A DNA stretch of 64,000 nt, from contig JAHHIA010000002.1 in assembly GCA_019359045.1 (NCBI GenBank), positions 242,401-306,400 of the forward strand. The letters run 5' to 3'. This stretch comes from Scytolyngbya sp. HA4215-MV1 (GTDB taxonomy: Bacteria; Cyanobacteriota; Cyanobacteriia; Leptolyngbyales; Leptolyngbyaceae). Under the pieces are notes generated by a model. It made no database searches, was not told the origin of the DNA, and saw only the letters and a list, made by a program, of their open reading frames with translations. Each line of letters begins with the position of its first letter. Position 1 is the first letter of the stretch. Below, piece after piece: positions 1,995 to 54,791 of this stretch. The position numbers were made by a program, and so were the translations under genes.

Positions 1995-2798
1995 TTAGCG
2001 ATGCAGGAAGCGATCGAGAATTTCCGCCTGCTGATCGTCACTCAGTACTTGCAAGCTCGTTAAAGATTCTTCTTGATAGGCAGTTCTGGGACGACGGAAT
2101 AACAGCGTATCTTTATCGCCGGACAGCCGACTGTCCCAATCGACCGAGATCTCTTCCGGTTCTAGCTCATCCTCATCTAGACCATCCTCCAATGCATCAA
2201 ATGCGCCCAACGAATTCAACTGAGCCAAAACTTCAGCCGGTGCGTCTTCGATAACTTGAGTTCCATGACAAATAAAAAAATTAAATGCCAGACTACCTAA
2301 ACGAATGCGATCTCCGTCTTTGAGCGGCATGGCATGGCGAATTGGCTCACTGTTGATGTAAGAACCATTCGTGCTGTTCAAATCGATGAGGTAAAAGCCT
2401 TTGCCTGGTTTGTACTGAATTGCCGCATGAAGGCGGGACATCCGCTTGTCCGAAACTTTGAGGGTAAGACGCCGATCTCGTCCAATTACCCAAAGCATTC
2501 GAGGCGTGTAAACTGCCTGCGTTTTGCCTTTGGGCAAATTGGTAATCAGGTACGCCCCTTCCCCTTGCACCACTGCCTGAACATATTGAGACGTTTCTTG
2601 TCTCCGGTAGTGATTGTTCCCGTCCTCTAAATCCAGGATTTCATCTAGCAGATTGCGATGCTGTTCATACAGTCTCAAAAACACACGGTATAGCCCCAAG
2701 CGTTCTTCCAACTCATCTGCACTGGTTGAGTCGATCGCTGGTAAGGATGAAGGGGGAGTTGGAGCGTGTGATTCTAACATAAGGTCCGAAAAGTGCAA
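1995..2798 (-). CDS. FHA domain-containing protein
   Basis: The forkhead-associated domain occupies about residues 100-175 and shows the signature residues: Gly106-Arg107 in the first strand, Ser121-Arg122-x-His124, and Asn141-Ser-Thr-Asn144-Gly145. FHA domains bind phosphothreonine peptides, so the protein probably acts as an adaptor in Ser/Thr kinase signalling; a large Ser/Thr kinase is encoded at 51.6-54 kb, but no direct link can be shown. The N-terminal 95 residues are helical and unassigned, and the C-terminal 90 residues are acidic (rich in Asp/Glu around 205-225). No transmembrane segment is seen, so it is likely cytoplasmic. Confidence 0.85.
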   Translation of the reverse strand: MHFSDLMLESHAPTPPSSLPAIDSTSADELEERLGLYRVFLRLYEQHRNLLDEILDLEDGNNHYRRQETSQYVQAVVQGEGAYLITNLPKGKTQAVYTPRMLWVIGRDRRLTLKVSDKRMSRLHAAIQYKPGKGFYLIDLNSTNGSYINSEPIRHAMPLKDGDRIRLGSLAFNFFICHGTQVIEDAPAEVLAQLNSLGAFDALEDGLDEDELEPEEISVDWDSRLSGDKDTLLFRRPRTAYQEESLTSLQVLSDDQQAEILDRFLHR

Positions 2799-50870: not shown

Positions 50871-51198
50871 TGAATGTTACAGACTGGATGAAAAGCACAG
50901 AAAAAATTTAGTGACATCCTACCATCGGAGGAATTAGGATGACTCGTTGCTTTGCGATTTATTGCGCGATTTTAACGATGTAGGGGGTTGTCTGAGAACC
51001 AGTCATACACCTGATTAAGAATCGTTGTACTTGACTGAGAGAGGAAGACTCATGCAGTAGGACGTCAGATAGACCATCCGTCAGAATCAGAGAGGTTTGG
51101 GCTAAAATGGAGAAACTCGAACTGCTCTGATTGCGTCTCTGGTTGCAGTAGCGAAAGTGCGATCGTTCTCGAAGGTTCTCTCTAGCAATTTCTTAAAG
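50871..51198. other. 328-base gap between the fadL-like gene and the next gene
   Basis: The genes on either side diverge. No hairpin, repeat or additional frame of interest was recognised; promoters presumably lie here. Confidence 0.4.
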
Positions 51199-51600
51199 AT
51201 GAACACCCAAGCTTTTTTTGTTTCTGTCAAATCTTTCGCCTGGATCGTTGTAGCAACAGTTGCAGGTGTCGGAATGGTGGTATTGCTGCCAACTCGATCT
51301 TTGGCGCAAGCGCAGAATGATGCTGCCCCAACTGTCGTCGATCCGCTGAAAGATTTCCAATCCCCTGATGCCAGTTCCGATCCGTTTTCCAGCCGGGGTG
51401 ATAATTCTAGTGGCGTCTTTGACCTGATTCACCGCGCGATGCAAAGTAGTGGAAAGAGTTTTGAAGATTTCTCTGCTGAACAAGAAGATAATTTAGATAG
51501 TGAAGCGGCTCAGTTTCGGAAGCAGCAGCTTGAACTGTTACGGCAACGCCAACAAGCTGAGCAGACAACACCGGCCAGCAGTTCGAGTAGCGGTAATTAA
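51199..51600 (+). CDS. Small membrane-anchored or secreted hypothetical protein, 133 aa
   Basis: I do not recognise a named family. The N-terminus has a hydrophobic stretch (SFAWIVVATVAGVGMVVLLP) ending near SLAQAQ, which suits a signal peptide. The mature part is Asp/Ser-rich and ends with a Gln/Arg-rich coiled-coil-like region (RKQQLELLRQRQQAEQ) and a Ser-rich tail. ATG 51199 is preferred over GTG 51157. It converges on the Ser/Thr kinase-receptor gene with a 49-base gap. Confidence 0.65.
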   Translation: MNTQAFFVSVKSFAWIVVATVAGVGMVVLLPTRSLAQAQNDAAPTVVDPLKDFQSPDASSDPFSSRGDNSSGVFDLIHRAMQSSGKSFEDFSAEQEDNLDSEAAQFRKQQLELLRQRQQAEQTTPASSSSSGN

Positions 51601-51649: not shown

Positions 51650-53995
51650 TCAGGGGACAGGCTTGAACTCAAAATTGCCTGACTGAGCGCTTTTTCCTTT
51701 GGGGGTAACCTTAACCAGTTGGATCGCGATTTCACGATCGCCTGTGGCTCGGAAACTAACTCGCCCAGTTGCCCCCAAGGCAAAAAAGTCTGGCGCGGAG
51801 AGCGCTCTTTGAATGTTCTGGCGTGAATTACCTTGCTGTAAAGCCGTAATCAGTGCCTGGGTAGCATCATAGGCAAGTGCTGTCCGCCAATTGACAGGTT
51901 GCTGCCAAAGCTGAATTGCCTGTTGCCGAAAGATGGGTTGAATATCGCCTCCAGCACCCGTCGGCACTGCCAATACCATCCCGGTTGCAGCATCTCCCCA
52001 AACCTGCAACAACCGACGGGTGTAGAGGCTATCTCCTGCCAGCACTTGCAAACGTCGATGATTCACTAAAACGACTTGCATCGCCTTATCGGACACAGTG
52101 CTGTCTGGAGCCAGCATCAGCACTTCTGCTCCGTACCGGCTCGCTTTTTCGAGACTTTCGTAAGCATTAAAGGTGGGATCGGAGAGATCGAACTCGGCGA
52201 TCGGCTTCTCAGCTTGGCTGGAAAATAAGGCTCGCTTAAACTCTCCAGACAAAGATTGACTGTAGGCATTGCTGGCATTGGAAAAAATCGCCACCTTTTT
52301 CATGCGGAGAGTTTTATGCAGATAGTCGGCAAGCTTTTGAGCAGAGTAGCTATCACTGGGCACTGTACGAAAAATATAATCGCCCAATTCCGAAAGGGAC
52401 TCGGCCGAACTGAGGGGAGAGATCATTACGAGGTGCCCCCTTTCGTAAACCTTGCCAGCAGCAAGGCTGACATCACTGTCAGCGTGCCCCACGACCCCCA
52501 GAATTTCGGGACGTTTGACCAGGGCTTGAGCAATCTGTTGGGCGATTGCAGGTTGGTTATTATCACTAGCGATCGCCACTTTCAACCCTACCCCGTTGAT
52601 CCCCCCCGCCCGATTGATGACCTCTTGCGCCTGTGCCACTCCCCGCAAAATTTCCTTGGCGGATTCTGGAGCTTTATCCAGGGGAACAGCGACCGCGATT
52701 GTCATAGAGGGACGATTCCGCACTTGAGCGTTATTGAGGTAAATCAGGGTTTCTGGATCGGCAGGATCGATTGTACGGGCACGTGTCAAGGCTGCGATCG
52801 CCCGCTCATTGTCTTGGGCCGCCAGAGACTTGACTCCTGATTGTTTGGCAGGGATTGCGATGCCTGGCGTAAGAATTGTGCCTCCCTGACTGATGCGGCG
52901 ATCTATCTCTCCCTGGCTGCGTTCAATCTTGGGCAGCCACATGGGTGGCCATAGAAACCGCGCCGCAGCCATTGCCAACAGACTGGTTAACAGTGCGATC
53001 GTGCCCAGTCCAACCCACCAGTGCCATCGTCGGTTCCCTGGCGAAAGGACAGCGGGTGAAAGCAGAGGACGCTGAGCTTCTGTCCGACTTTGGGAATTGG
53101 GTTGAGTCGGTTGTGCAGCATCGATCTGCCTGAGCGAGTCCATTACTGAAGGGGCGGCTGTCAGCGCACTGGCACGCTGGCTAAACTGCCCCAACGCTTG
53201 CAATACCTCGGCCGCAGACTGATATCGTTGTTTGAAGTGATACCGCACCATGCGATCGAGCACATCGCCCAACTCTTCACTCACGGTGATCAAATCTCGC
53301 CAAACGGCTTCTAAACTGTCGGGGTCTTGGGGCAGTTGTGTGGGGCGCAATGCCGTCAACGCTTGAATCCCAATCATCCCCAGCGCATAAATATCGCTAT
53401 TAAATTGGGGCTTTCCCATGCACTGCTCACTGGCACCATACCCGGAGGTATAGATGGGGATACTCACCGTTGAGTTAGCAGAATTTTCCACCGCAGCACT
53501 AATTGTCTTCACAGCACCAAAATCGATTAGCACCAACCGATTATCTCGATACCGACGAATTAAGTTATCCGGCTTCACATCTCGATGAATCACTTGCTGC
53601 CCGTGCACATATCGCAAAATTCCCAGTACATCCTGAAGCAACTCCACAACCTGAGCTTCGGAAAATCGAATTCCTCGTCCCAATTCATCACTCAGGGGAT
53701 GCCCTTCAATAAATTCTTGGACCAGATAGAACTCCTGGTTTTCCTCAAAATACGCAAGTAACTGGGGAATTTGAGGATGTTGTCCCAGCCGCTCCAGGGT
53801 TTCGGCTTCCGCTAGAAATAGGCGCCTGACCTGCGCCAAAATCACAGAATCACTACTGGCAAAACTGAGATGTTTGAGCACACACCAGGGATTGCCAGGA
53901 CGCTGAGTATCTTCTGCGATGTAGGTATTGCCAAAACCGCCAGAACCCAGCACTCTAATCACTTTATAGCGTGCACCCAGCAGTTTTCCTAACAT
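51650..53995 (-). CDS. Ser/Thr kinase fused via a membrane segment to a periplasmic amino-acid-binding-type domain
   Basis: The 781-residue protein (ATG 53995) is a receptor-like kinase. Residues 1-270 form a Hanks-type kinase: the glycine loop GSGGFGNTY, the ATP-anchoring Lys in CVLKHLSF, the catalytic HRDVKPDN and DFGAVK. After a Ser/Thr/Gln-rich linker, one hydrophobic segment (HWWVGLGTIALLTSLLAMA, about 322-340) crosses the membrane. The remainder, from about 435, is a branched-chain amino-acid-binding (Peripla_BP_6-like) domain (MTIAVAVPLDKAPESAKEIL, GVVGHADSDVSLAAGKVYE). The architecture implies direct ligand sensing. The ligand and targets are unknown. Confidence 0.9.
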   Translation of the reverse strand: MLGKLLGARYKVIRVLGSGGFGNTYIAEDTQRPGNPWCVLKHLSFASSDSVILAQVRRLFLAEAETLERLGQHPQIPQLLAYFEENQEFYLVQEFIEGHPLSDELGRGIRFSEAQVVELLQDVLGILRYVHGQQVIHRDVKPDNLIRRYRDNRLVLIDFGAVKTISAAVENSANSTVSIPIYTSGYGASEQCMGKPQFNSDIYALGMIGIQALTALRPTQLPQDPDSLEAVWRDLITVSEELGDVLDRMVRYHFKQRYQSAAEVLQALGQFSQRASALTAAPSVMDSLRQIDAAQPTQPNSQSRTEAQRPLLSPAVLSPGNRRWHWWVGLGTIALLTSLLAMAAARFLWPPMWLPKIERSQGEIDRRISQGGTILTPGIAIPAKQSGVKSLAAQDNERAIAALTRARTIDPADPETLIYLNNAQVRNRPSMTIAVAVPLDKAPESAKEILRGVAQAQEVINRAGGINGVGLKVAIASDNNQPAIAQQIAQALVKRPEILGVVGHADSDVSLAAGKVYERGHLVMISPLSSAESLSELGDYIFRTVPSDSYSAQKLADYLHKTLRMKKVAIFSNASNAYSQSLSGEFKRALFSSQAEKPIAEFDLSDPTFNAYESLEKASRYGAEVLMLAPDSTVSDKAMQVVLVNHRRLQVLAGDSLYTRRLLQVWGDAATGMVLAVPTGAGGDIQPIFRQQAIQLWQQPVNWRTALAYDATQALITALQQGNSRQNIQRALSAPDFFALGATGRVSFRATGDREIAIQLVKVTPKGKSAQSGNFEFKPVP

Positions 53996-54095: not shown

Positions 54096-54791
54096 ATGAA
54101 CATCAAACAGCGCCATCCTTGGGTTTTGACTGCTGAGGAAGCAACTGCAATTCAACAAGAATTGCGACAAGAAGTCGTGACTGAAGATCAGTTGGGAGCC
54201 GTGCAATTTGTGGCAGGGATGGATGTGGGCTTTGAGGCAGAGGGAAGCATTACTCGTGCTGCGATCGCGGTACTGCGGTTTCCCGATTTGCAATTCCATG
54301 AGCAAGCGATCGCGCGGCGTCCCACCACATTCCCGTATATTCCCGGCTATCTTTCGTTTCGCGAAGTGCCCACCGTGTTAGATGCGTTGGAGCAATTACA
54401 GACGATTCCAGATTTGCTGTTGTGCGATGGTCAGGGGATCGCTCATCCACGTCGGTTGGGGATTGCCTGCCATCTCGGCTTGTTGACCGATTTACCTGCG
54501 ATCGGCGTGGGAAAGTCGCGCTTGGTCGGTCGGCATGAGGATGTACCGGAGCAACGGGGTAGCTGGGTACCATTGATTCATCAAAAAGAAACGATTGGGG
54601 CAGTGTTGCGAACGCGCCCCGGTACCAAGCCGCTGTATATTTCCCCCGGTCATAAAATCAGCCTACTGACGGCGATCGAATATGTAATGAGTTGTACGAC
54701 TAAATATCGCCTACCCGAAACCACACGCTTTGCTCATAAATTGGCATCTGCCAAACCCGCTCAAAGCAACGGGCAACTGTCTATCTCATAA
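54096..54791 (+). CDS. nfi: Endonuclease V
   Basis: Endonuclease V cuts DNA next to deaminated adenine (inosine) and starts its repair. Motifs are AGMDVGF (metal-binding Asp), the PYIPGYLSFREVP wedge region, LLCDGQGIAHPRRLGIACHLG and VGVGKSRL-like (here IGVGKSRLVG). The 231-residue length is usual. It diverges from the kinase-receptor gene with a 100-base gap. Confidence 0.96.
   Translation: MNIKQRHPWVLTAEEATAIQQELRQEVVTEDQLGAVQFVAGMDVGFEAEGSITRAAIAVLRFPDLQFHEQAIARRPTTFPYIPGYLSFREVPTVLDALEQLQTIPDLLLCDGQGIAHPRRLGIACHLGLLTDLPAIGVGKSRLVGRHEDVPEQRGSWVPLIHQKETIGAVLRTRPGTKPLYISPGHKISLLTAIEYVMSCTTKYRLPETTRFAHKLASAKPAQSNGQLSIS

Follow-up and report, generated by a model that had tools for sequence, protein, structure and literature searches.

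A gene of Scytolyngbya sp. HA4215-MV1, lying in a stretch of 64,000 nucleotides (hereafter the window), on balance probably encodes a ligand-gated receptor kinase with a periplasmic amino-acid sensor. In this scheme a single membrane helix and a short helical neck would hold the binding domain of the protein in the periplasm, and a flexible linker would carry the kinase in the cytoplasm. The two lobes of the binding domain would close on an amino acid, probably one whose side chain is acidic, and this closure, most likely via a change between two receptor molecules, would alter the activity of the kinase. Ligand binding itself, the identity of the ligand, signalling by a dimer and the direction of control are the steps of this scheme that we infer.

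The gene (Table 1) is one intact open reading frame with an ATG at 53995 and zero internal stops. Since the consensus of the family opens with MLGxLLGxRY, this ATG is preferred as the start over a TTG situated 24 bp upstream, which is a possible alternative. An earlier note, made from the letters of the window, had seen in this frame a Hanks-type kinase and a binding domain in one protein, and the Pfam searches bear this out, with both matches above the cut-off of 31.7 bits: Pkinase (PF00069) with E 1.3e-30 and 107.1 bits, and Peripla_BP_6 (PF13458, residues 444-760) with E 2.2e-23 and 83.9 bits. The order on the chain is Pkinase followed by Peripla_BP_6/ANF_receptor, and the hydrophobicity analysis places a single hydrophobic segment between the two, in agreement with the one membrane segment described in that note. 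A comparison with the specific NCBIfam equivalogs gave matches to 19 families with E values of up to 1, none of them reaching its cut-off. The gene adjoins that of endonuclease V, in a chromosomal neighbourhood whose synteny is conserved. An operon for the kinase gene was considered and rejected, the endonuclease V gene being divergent and the small ORF on the other side convergent; no Pfam match was obtained for the latter. An FHA-domain gene of the window (1995-2798, minus strand, 267 aa; PF00498, E 5e-20) had been named earlier as a possible reader of the kinase. The two genes are 49 kb apart and do not share an operon, no link between them was seen, and this candidate was dropped as unsupported.

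Table 1. Predicted features of the putative receptor kinase gene and its neighbours, in positions of the window
Feature	Position	Strand	Basis
Putative receptor kinase gene, 781 aa	51650..53995	-	ORF list, Pfam, full-length relatives
Ser/Thr kinase domain, residues 10-266	53198..53968	-	Pfam, catalytic-residue alignment
Single membrane segment, about residues 327-345	52961..53017	-	Hydrophobicity; low-confidence model helix 333-346
Extracytoplasmic neck (predicted), residues 359-425	52721..52921	-	TPR-like helical hairpin and capping helix (alignment, model)
LIV-type (PBP type I) binding domain, residues 429-781	51653..52711	-	Pfam, structure comparison
Stretch with head-group Ser507, Ser530, Asp548, Tyr578, Asp655	52025..52477	-	Alignment to LivJ
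Arg704 codon, matching LivJ Phe276 / LivK Tyr276	51884..51886	-	Alignment
Endonuclease V gene, divergent neighbour	54096..54791	+	Also adjoins the gene in many same-family relatives
Small ORF with secretion-type N-terminus, convergent neighbour	51157..51600	+	Conserved synteny

The kinase domain was examined for the key catalytic residues in an alignment (A2) of 40 of the 51 fused relatives. Lys41, Glu63, His137 and Asp139 of the HRD motif, Asp158-Phe159-Gly160 of the DFG motif, Glu190 of the activation segment, Asp201 of the F helix and Arg257 of subdomain XI are identical in all 40 rows and, as the catalytic residues never vary among these relatives, the window kinase should be active. Across all 51 fused rows the mean number of Lys and Arg residues beside the membrane segment is 3.98 before it against 1.14 after it; the number before is the larger in 47 rows, equal in three and smaller in one, while the flanks of the window protein itself tie with two such residues on each side. 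Under the positive-inside rule, the bias in these 51 rows supports for the family a predicted topology with a cytoplasmic kinase and an extracytoplasmic binding domain, which upholds the receptor-kinase layout proposed in the earlier note.

Structure prediction, which had been suggested as a check on that layout, gave for the full-length protein a mean pLDDT of 85.3, with most of residues 278-359 (linker and membrane segment) below 50. The linker and membrane segment were modelled at pLDDT 31-45 and the neck and binding domain mostly above 90; owing to the low values in the former, the signal path is not readable from the model. The anchor helix, the neck (..RxSxGexxL..KQxG..AxAxGxY..A...LE.A....DPExLIYLNNA..) and the binding domain together form what is hereafter referred to as the module, and the C-terminal motif of the neck, DPExLIYLNNA, is common to the fused and the stand-alone relatives. 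Modelled alone (mean pLDDT 95.6, pTM 0.94), the module shows three helices ahead of the first strand, and its binding domain is confidently predicted to adopt a two-lobed LIV-type fold. The top solved matches are Atu2422 with alanine (3ip5; Z 39.3, rmsd 2.6 over 341 residues) and, equally, the leucine-bound 4n0q (Z 39.3), and the best Foldseek matches are 4q6b and 4mlc. The outer domain of the metabotropic glutamate receptors is of the same fold class and likewise stands on a membrane receptor (mGlu8 with glutamate, Z 33.7); the resemblance is remote (17% identity), and the output in the window protein is a kinase, not the seven-helix G-protein-coupled part.

The ligand pocket was analysed in an alignment of E. 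coli LivJ and LivK with 102 modules, a sequence-only comparison, on which the placing of Arg704 rests. Two further alignments, A1 and A3, comprise 74 and 69 of the 102 modules, respectively. The LivJ residues Ser79, Thr102, Asp121, Tyr150 and Glu226, with which LivJ holds the head group of its amino-acid ligand, correspond to Ser507, Ser530, Asp548, Tyr578 and Asp655 of the window protein; mGluR1 presumably uses an equivalent set with similar spacing. In the fused and the stand-alone rows, respectively, Ser is present at the first position in 51/51 and 47/48, Ser or Thr at the second in 50/51 and 47/48, Asp at the third in 48/51 and 44/48, Tyr at the fourth in 50/51 and 46/48, and Asp or Glu at the fifth in 49/51 and 43/48. 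The position of LivJ Phe276 and LivK Tyr276 is Arg704 in the window protein and Arg in 49/51 fused and 47/48 stand-alone rows. As judged by eye from the alignments, four solved LIV-type structures also carry a hydrophobic or aromatic residue there, namely Tyr (4mlc, 3ip5), Leu (3td9) and Phe (3hut); two LIV-type proteins of the window's own genome (L010 and L011) have Tyr and Phe. Identity averages only 42% over the columns of the module, and the head-group residues and the Arg stand far above the average column. Several head-group residues are lost in the module of one caspase-fused protein (L135), with Arg, Ala and Ser at LivJ positions 79, 102 and 150, and in that of the CHAT-fused protein (L137), with Val and His at positions 150 and 226, the equivalent of Arg704 being kept in both; the module of a further caspase/nSTAND1 protein (L138) keeps the head-group residues.

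A near-invariant Arg at the aromatic side-chain position makes a branched-chain amino acid unlikely as the ligand, and this candidate was set aside; the ligand is probably another one. As far as the alignment goes, the conserved positive charge hints that the side chain of the ligand is acidic; the losses in L135 and L137 speak against this. Thus, of the 'branched-chain-amino-acid-like' domain of the earlier note, the fold stands and the ligand probably does not, and the pocket check against Leu/Ile/Val-binding proteins that it had proposed shows the head-group residues kept and Arg704 at the aromatic side-chain position. The window protein shares with LivJ/LivK and Atu2422 the fold and the amino-acid head-group positions, and differs from them in its membrane-tethered neck, its fusion to a kinase, and the Arg at LivJ 276, and in that no LivH/LivM-like gene was seen nearby.

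The distribution of the protein was surveyed in 388 genomes of the class, 42 of them belonging to the window's own family. With the binding part as query, 292 of the 388 genomes match at E <=1e-10, ordinary LIV proteins included; with the whole protein, 101 match at E <=1e-100, some of them through one half only. The kinase and the binding domain are present in a single open frame in at least 49 of the 388 genomes and in at least 35 of the 42 of the own family. Such single-frame relatives align over nearly the full length at 49-56% identity in many genomes, which argues that the fusion is not a product of chance. Within the own family, split or broken versions of the fused gene occur in G237, G299 and G313, and among the matches listed no fused gene was seen in G048, G149, G170 and G326. 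In G313 (L187:4900-7204, minus strand), the kinase and the binding domain are encoded by two ORFs in different frames that overlap by about 31 bp, which may represent either a natural fission or a sequencing error. The fused modules of Tildeniella nuda (L025) and Stenomitos frigidus (L026) are identical to those of the same-family L167/G251 and L164/G270, respectively. Sixty plasmid records with a match were also considered and discarded, being mostly ordinary transport proteins of rhizobia and the Burkholderia group.

The module occurs in several settings: it follows a kinase or a CHAT domain, forms part of caspase/nSTAND1 proteins, or stands alone, in which case it begins with a membrane helix. 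A tree was calculated for 102 modules, comprising 51 kinase-fused, 48 stand-alone (including L187 of G313, the split version of the fused gene), two caspase-fused and one CHAT-fused; L195, L229, two of L231, L235 and L256, in which the anchor motif is absent or which are too short, and duplicates were left out. The window's module falls in a group of 41 rows (support 100) made up of 40 fused rows and the split gene of G313. The kinase-fused rows require at least seven changes in this tree, five of them forced by well-supported branches, and the AU test rejects all the kinase fusions as one clade (p 3.9e-6), so that a single origin of these fusions was abandoned. The tree of the kinases, calculated under a simpler model and carrying a warning of joined long branches, requires 10 changes, of which seven are forced; owing to the long branches of L226, L228 and L230, some tree placements are unsure.

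The CHAT-fused module lies on plasmid p1 of Planktothrix pseudagardhii (L137:1062-7098), beside a sigma factor and DUF1822, in a row consisting of a PspA-like gene, a stand-alone module, a sigma-70 factor, DUF1822 and the CHAT-fused module. The caspase/nSTAND1 fusions are represented by L198/L135 on a Nostoc plasmid and by L138, which carries WD40 repeats and in which no membrane helix was detected directly ahead of the module. On the conjugative Nostoc plasmid pNLP1, one gene of 3057 aa (L198:108-9281, minus strand) combines caspase, DUF7379, nSTAND1 and the binding domain. On a plasmid of Gloeothece verrucosa (L136:2553-6142), a caspase gene overlaps a binding-protein gene beside a CU044_2847-family gene, as though the caspase fusion had here been split in two.

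The stand-alone modules are frequently paired with a kinase gene. A kinase gene of one clade lies upstream on the same strand in 29 of the 48 stand-alone rows, at 27 loci with 10 family codes; the spacing is at most 60 bp in 15 pairs and up to 2.6 kb in the others, often with one gene in between. The partner kinase is absent from the flanking DNA examined in 18 of the 48 rows, two of which lie near a contig end with about 0.5 kb or less upstream; the remaining row is the split gene of G313. The window's own genome has a large kinase set, with 36 Pkinase matches in 6.6 Mb; at this density a kinase neighbour would be expected by chance at about 1% of the loci, a figure that serves as a guide only, the loci being related. 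The 27 paired kinases, five fused kinases of family f26 (L146-L149 and L230) and one kinase of the own genome form one clade (SH-aLRT 100), and hence one kinase lineage occurs both beside the module and fused to it. Kinases of this clade were apparently joined to the module by two fusions, with L230 placed on a long branch. All the 27 paired kinases carry an N-terminal 4-Cys motif, the prefix being named by NCBIfam in one paired kinase tested, and the hydrophobicity scan found two to five hydrophobic segments after residue 300, four of them in 17 of the 27. Many pairs are preceded by a gene for a LysR-type regulator and accompanied by one for a PstS-like protein, the latter with the MxQKN[ED]T anchor of the module. 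The pairing and the repeated fusion are independent signs of a joint function of the outer module and the kinase.

The own genome contains a related cluster (L267:3770-7569, plus strand; G000:C5:234000-247000) in which a LysR gene, a 504-aa 4-Cys kinase with several C-terminal hydrophobic segments and a PstS-like gene with the anchor MAQKNDT follow one another and the LIV-type gene of the related clusters is missing; the PstS-like gene is the only site of the anchor codons in this genome. A second receptor-like gene (L276:2080-4233, minus strand; G000:C15:99500-105500) encodes a protein of 717 aa with one hydrophobic segment and a PstS-like domain above cut-off; its kinase-like part is weak and below cut-off, shows HGN for HRD and CDL for DFG by eye, and is perhaps a pseudokinase. 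Another ORF, of 1062 aa (L277:1408-4596; G000:C5:248500-257500), begins with a PstS-like domain and also has a hydrophobic segment and a long repeat-bearing C-terminal part.

Other explanations of the window protein were weighed against that of a ligand-gated receptor kinase. That the domain serves an ABC permease, encoded at another place, by handing it an amino acid, with the kinase regulating the transporter, would suit a fold that is that of transporter-type LIV proteins and a genome with 12 BPD_transp_2 permease matches above cut-off. It is nevertheless improbable, as no LivH/LivM-like ORF was found at E 1e-5 near the module in 98 sequences (97 loci and the window, with flanks of about 1.5 to 6 kb per side), whereas the LIV-type gene L009 of the own genome adjoins a LivH-like ORF, and as a membrane helix anchors the module in the fused and most of the stand-alone forms. 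The PstS-like genes that neighbour many of the paired loci and share the anchor, together with the modest column identity of the module, raise the question of whether the domain recognises a periplasmic protein, such as this neighbour of the paired kinases, rather than a small molecule; against this unlikely reading stands the conservation of the head-group residues and the Arg far above the average column.

The module could also be read in terms of conflict or cell death, in which the module reports an outside threat and the kinase is one output beside caspase and CHAT effectors. Its fusion to caspase and nSTAND1 (L198, L138) and to CHAT (L137), and the split module next to a caspase gene and a CU044_2847-family gene in Gloeothece, agree with such a role. 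The window gene, however, lies in its conserved synteny with no defence gene seen, is kept by most of the same-family genomes, unlike a patchy defence gene, and the caspase and CHAT forms account for three of the 102 modules in the tree, which renders this reading very unlikely for the window protein. Finally, the window gene has no known target or operon partner, as would be expected of a kinase that is constitutive or targets only itself, with the outer domain a passive remnant; yet in many genomes the kinase and the outer domain alike are conserved along their full length, and independent fusions unite the same two parts, and this explanation is considered highly improbable. A receptor kinase gated by a periplasmic amino acid thus remains the preferred reading.

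The layout of a kinase with such a binding domain is already in print since 2005, and that of the window protein is not new. A kinase with an ANF receptor was described in Nostoc PCC 7120 in that year, with binding of branched-chain amino acids suggested (PMC1262709), and was listed again in 2007 as alr0344 together with Crocosphaera CwatDRAFT_0902 (PMC2176072); the Nostoc/Anabaena protein appears in these sources as gi 17227840 or 17129689 and as alr0344. By its described architecture, the window protein resembles this type in uniting a Ser/Thr kinase and an ANF/LIV-type domain in one cyanobacterial chain. In the passages concerned, the alr0344-type entries are domain architectures given without experiment, pocket analysis or gene-pair context. 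Cyanobacterial proteins with a metacaspase and an ANF receptor were listed in 2010 and 2012 (PMC2853523, PMC3501461). As listed there, they similarly join an ANF/LIV-type domain to a signalling or effector domain, and differ in that the output is a caspase; the present module, too, was seen in two proteins with caspase/nSTAND1. Searches of the open-licence PMC literature found neither the pairs of stand-alone module and 4-Cys kinase nor the repeated fusions, the joining of this module to caspase/nSTAND and CHAT domains or the conserved Arg.

A functional parallel is offered by the GlnH-GlnX-PknG system of the Actinobacteria, in which, according to the parts of the sources dealing with it, the periplasmic Asp/Glu-binding lipoprotein GlnH controls a Ser/Thr kinase across the membrane and PknG acts on the FHA proteins OdhI/GarA (PMC6069109, PMC9769921, PMC8546545). 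As the system is described there, an outside amino-acid-type binding domain is coupled to an inside Ser/Thr kinase, as predicted for the window protein, and the closer parallel is found in the pairs in which the gene of a 4-Cys multi-TM kinase adjoins that of a stand-alone binding protein. The actinobacterial system consists of three proteins, with separate genes for the binding protein, the coupler and the kinase in one operon, whereas the window has one fused gene encoding one chain, with no separate coupler and no FHA link seen. GlnH belongs to another class of binding proteins than the LIV type. On the best reading, by analogy, the window protein would work like GlnH-GlnX-PknG, yet not be a member of that system.

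Taken together, these observations allow a wider reading, held here only tentatively and graded as a whole, of a widespread cyanobacterial outside-in module that may act as an acidic-amino-acid sensor with a paired kinase and has had its outputs swapped. The module would follow a GlnH-like logic, while being unlike GlnH in sequence, and would pair with a 4-Cys multi-TM kinase, often with a PstS-like second sensor bearing the same anchor. The window protein would be its single-chain version, a separate fusion with another kinase lineage, and the module a plug-in sensor that repeatedly exchanged its output among kinases, caspase/nSTAND and CHAT effectors.

The signals that activate bacterial Ser/Thr kinases are named as an outstanding question in the relevant part of a published account (PMC6069109). 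In the window protein, the sensor shares a chain with the kinase and has a confidently predicted fold, and its pocket signature names a testable class of ligand. From the gene pairs and the fusions, more such pairs of sensor and kinase are to be expected across many families of cyanobacteria, and the 4-Cys kinase with its PstS-like neighbour is a further candidate pair in the own genome. A comparison of such relatives suggests the kind of signal that switches on these kinases.
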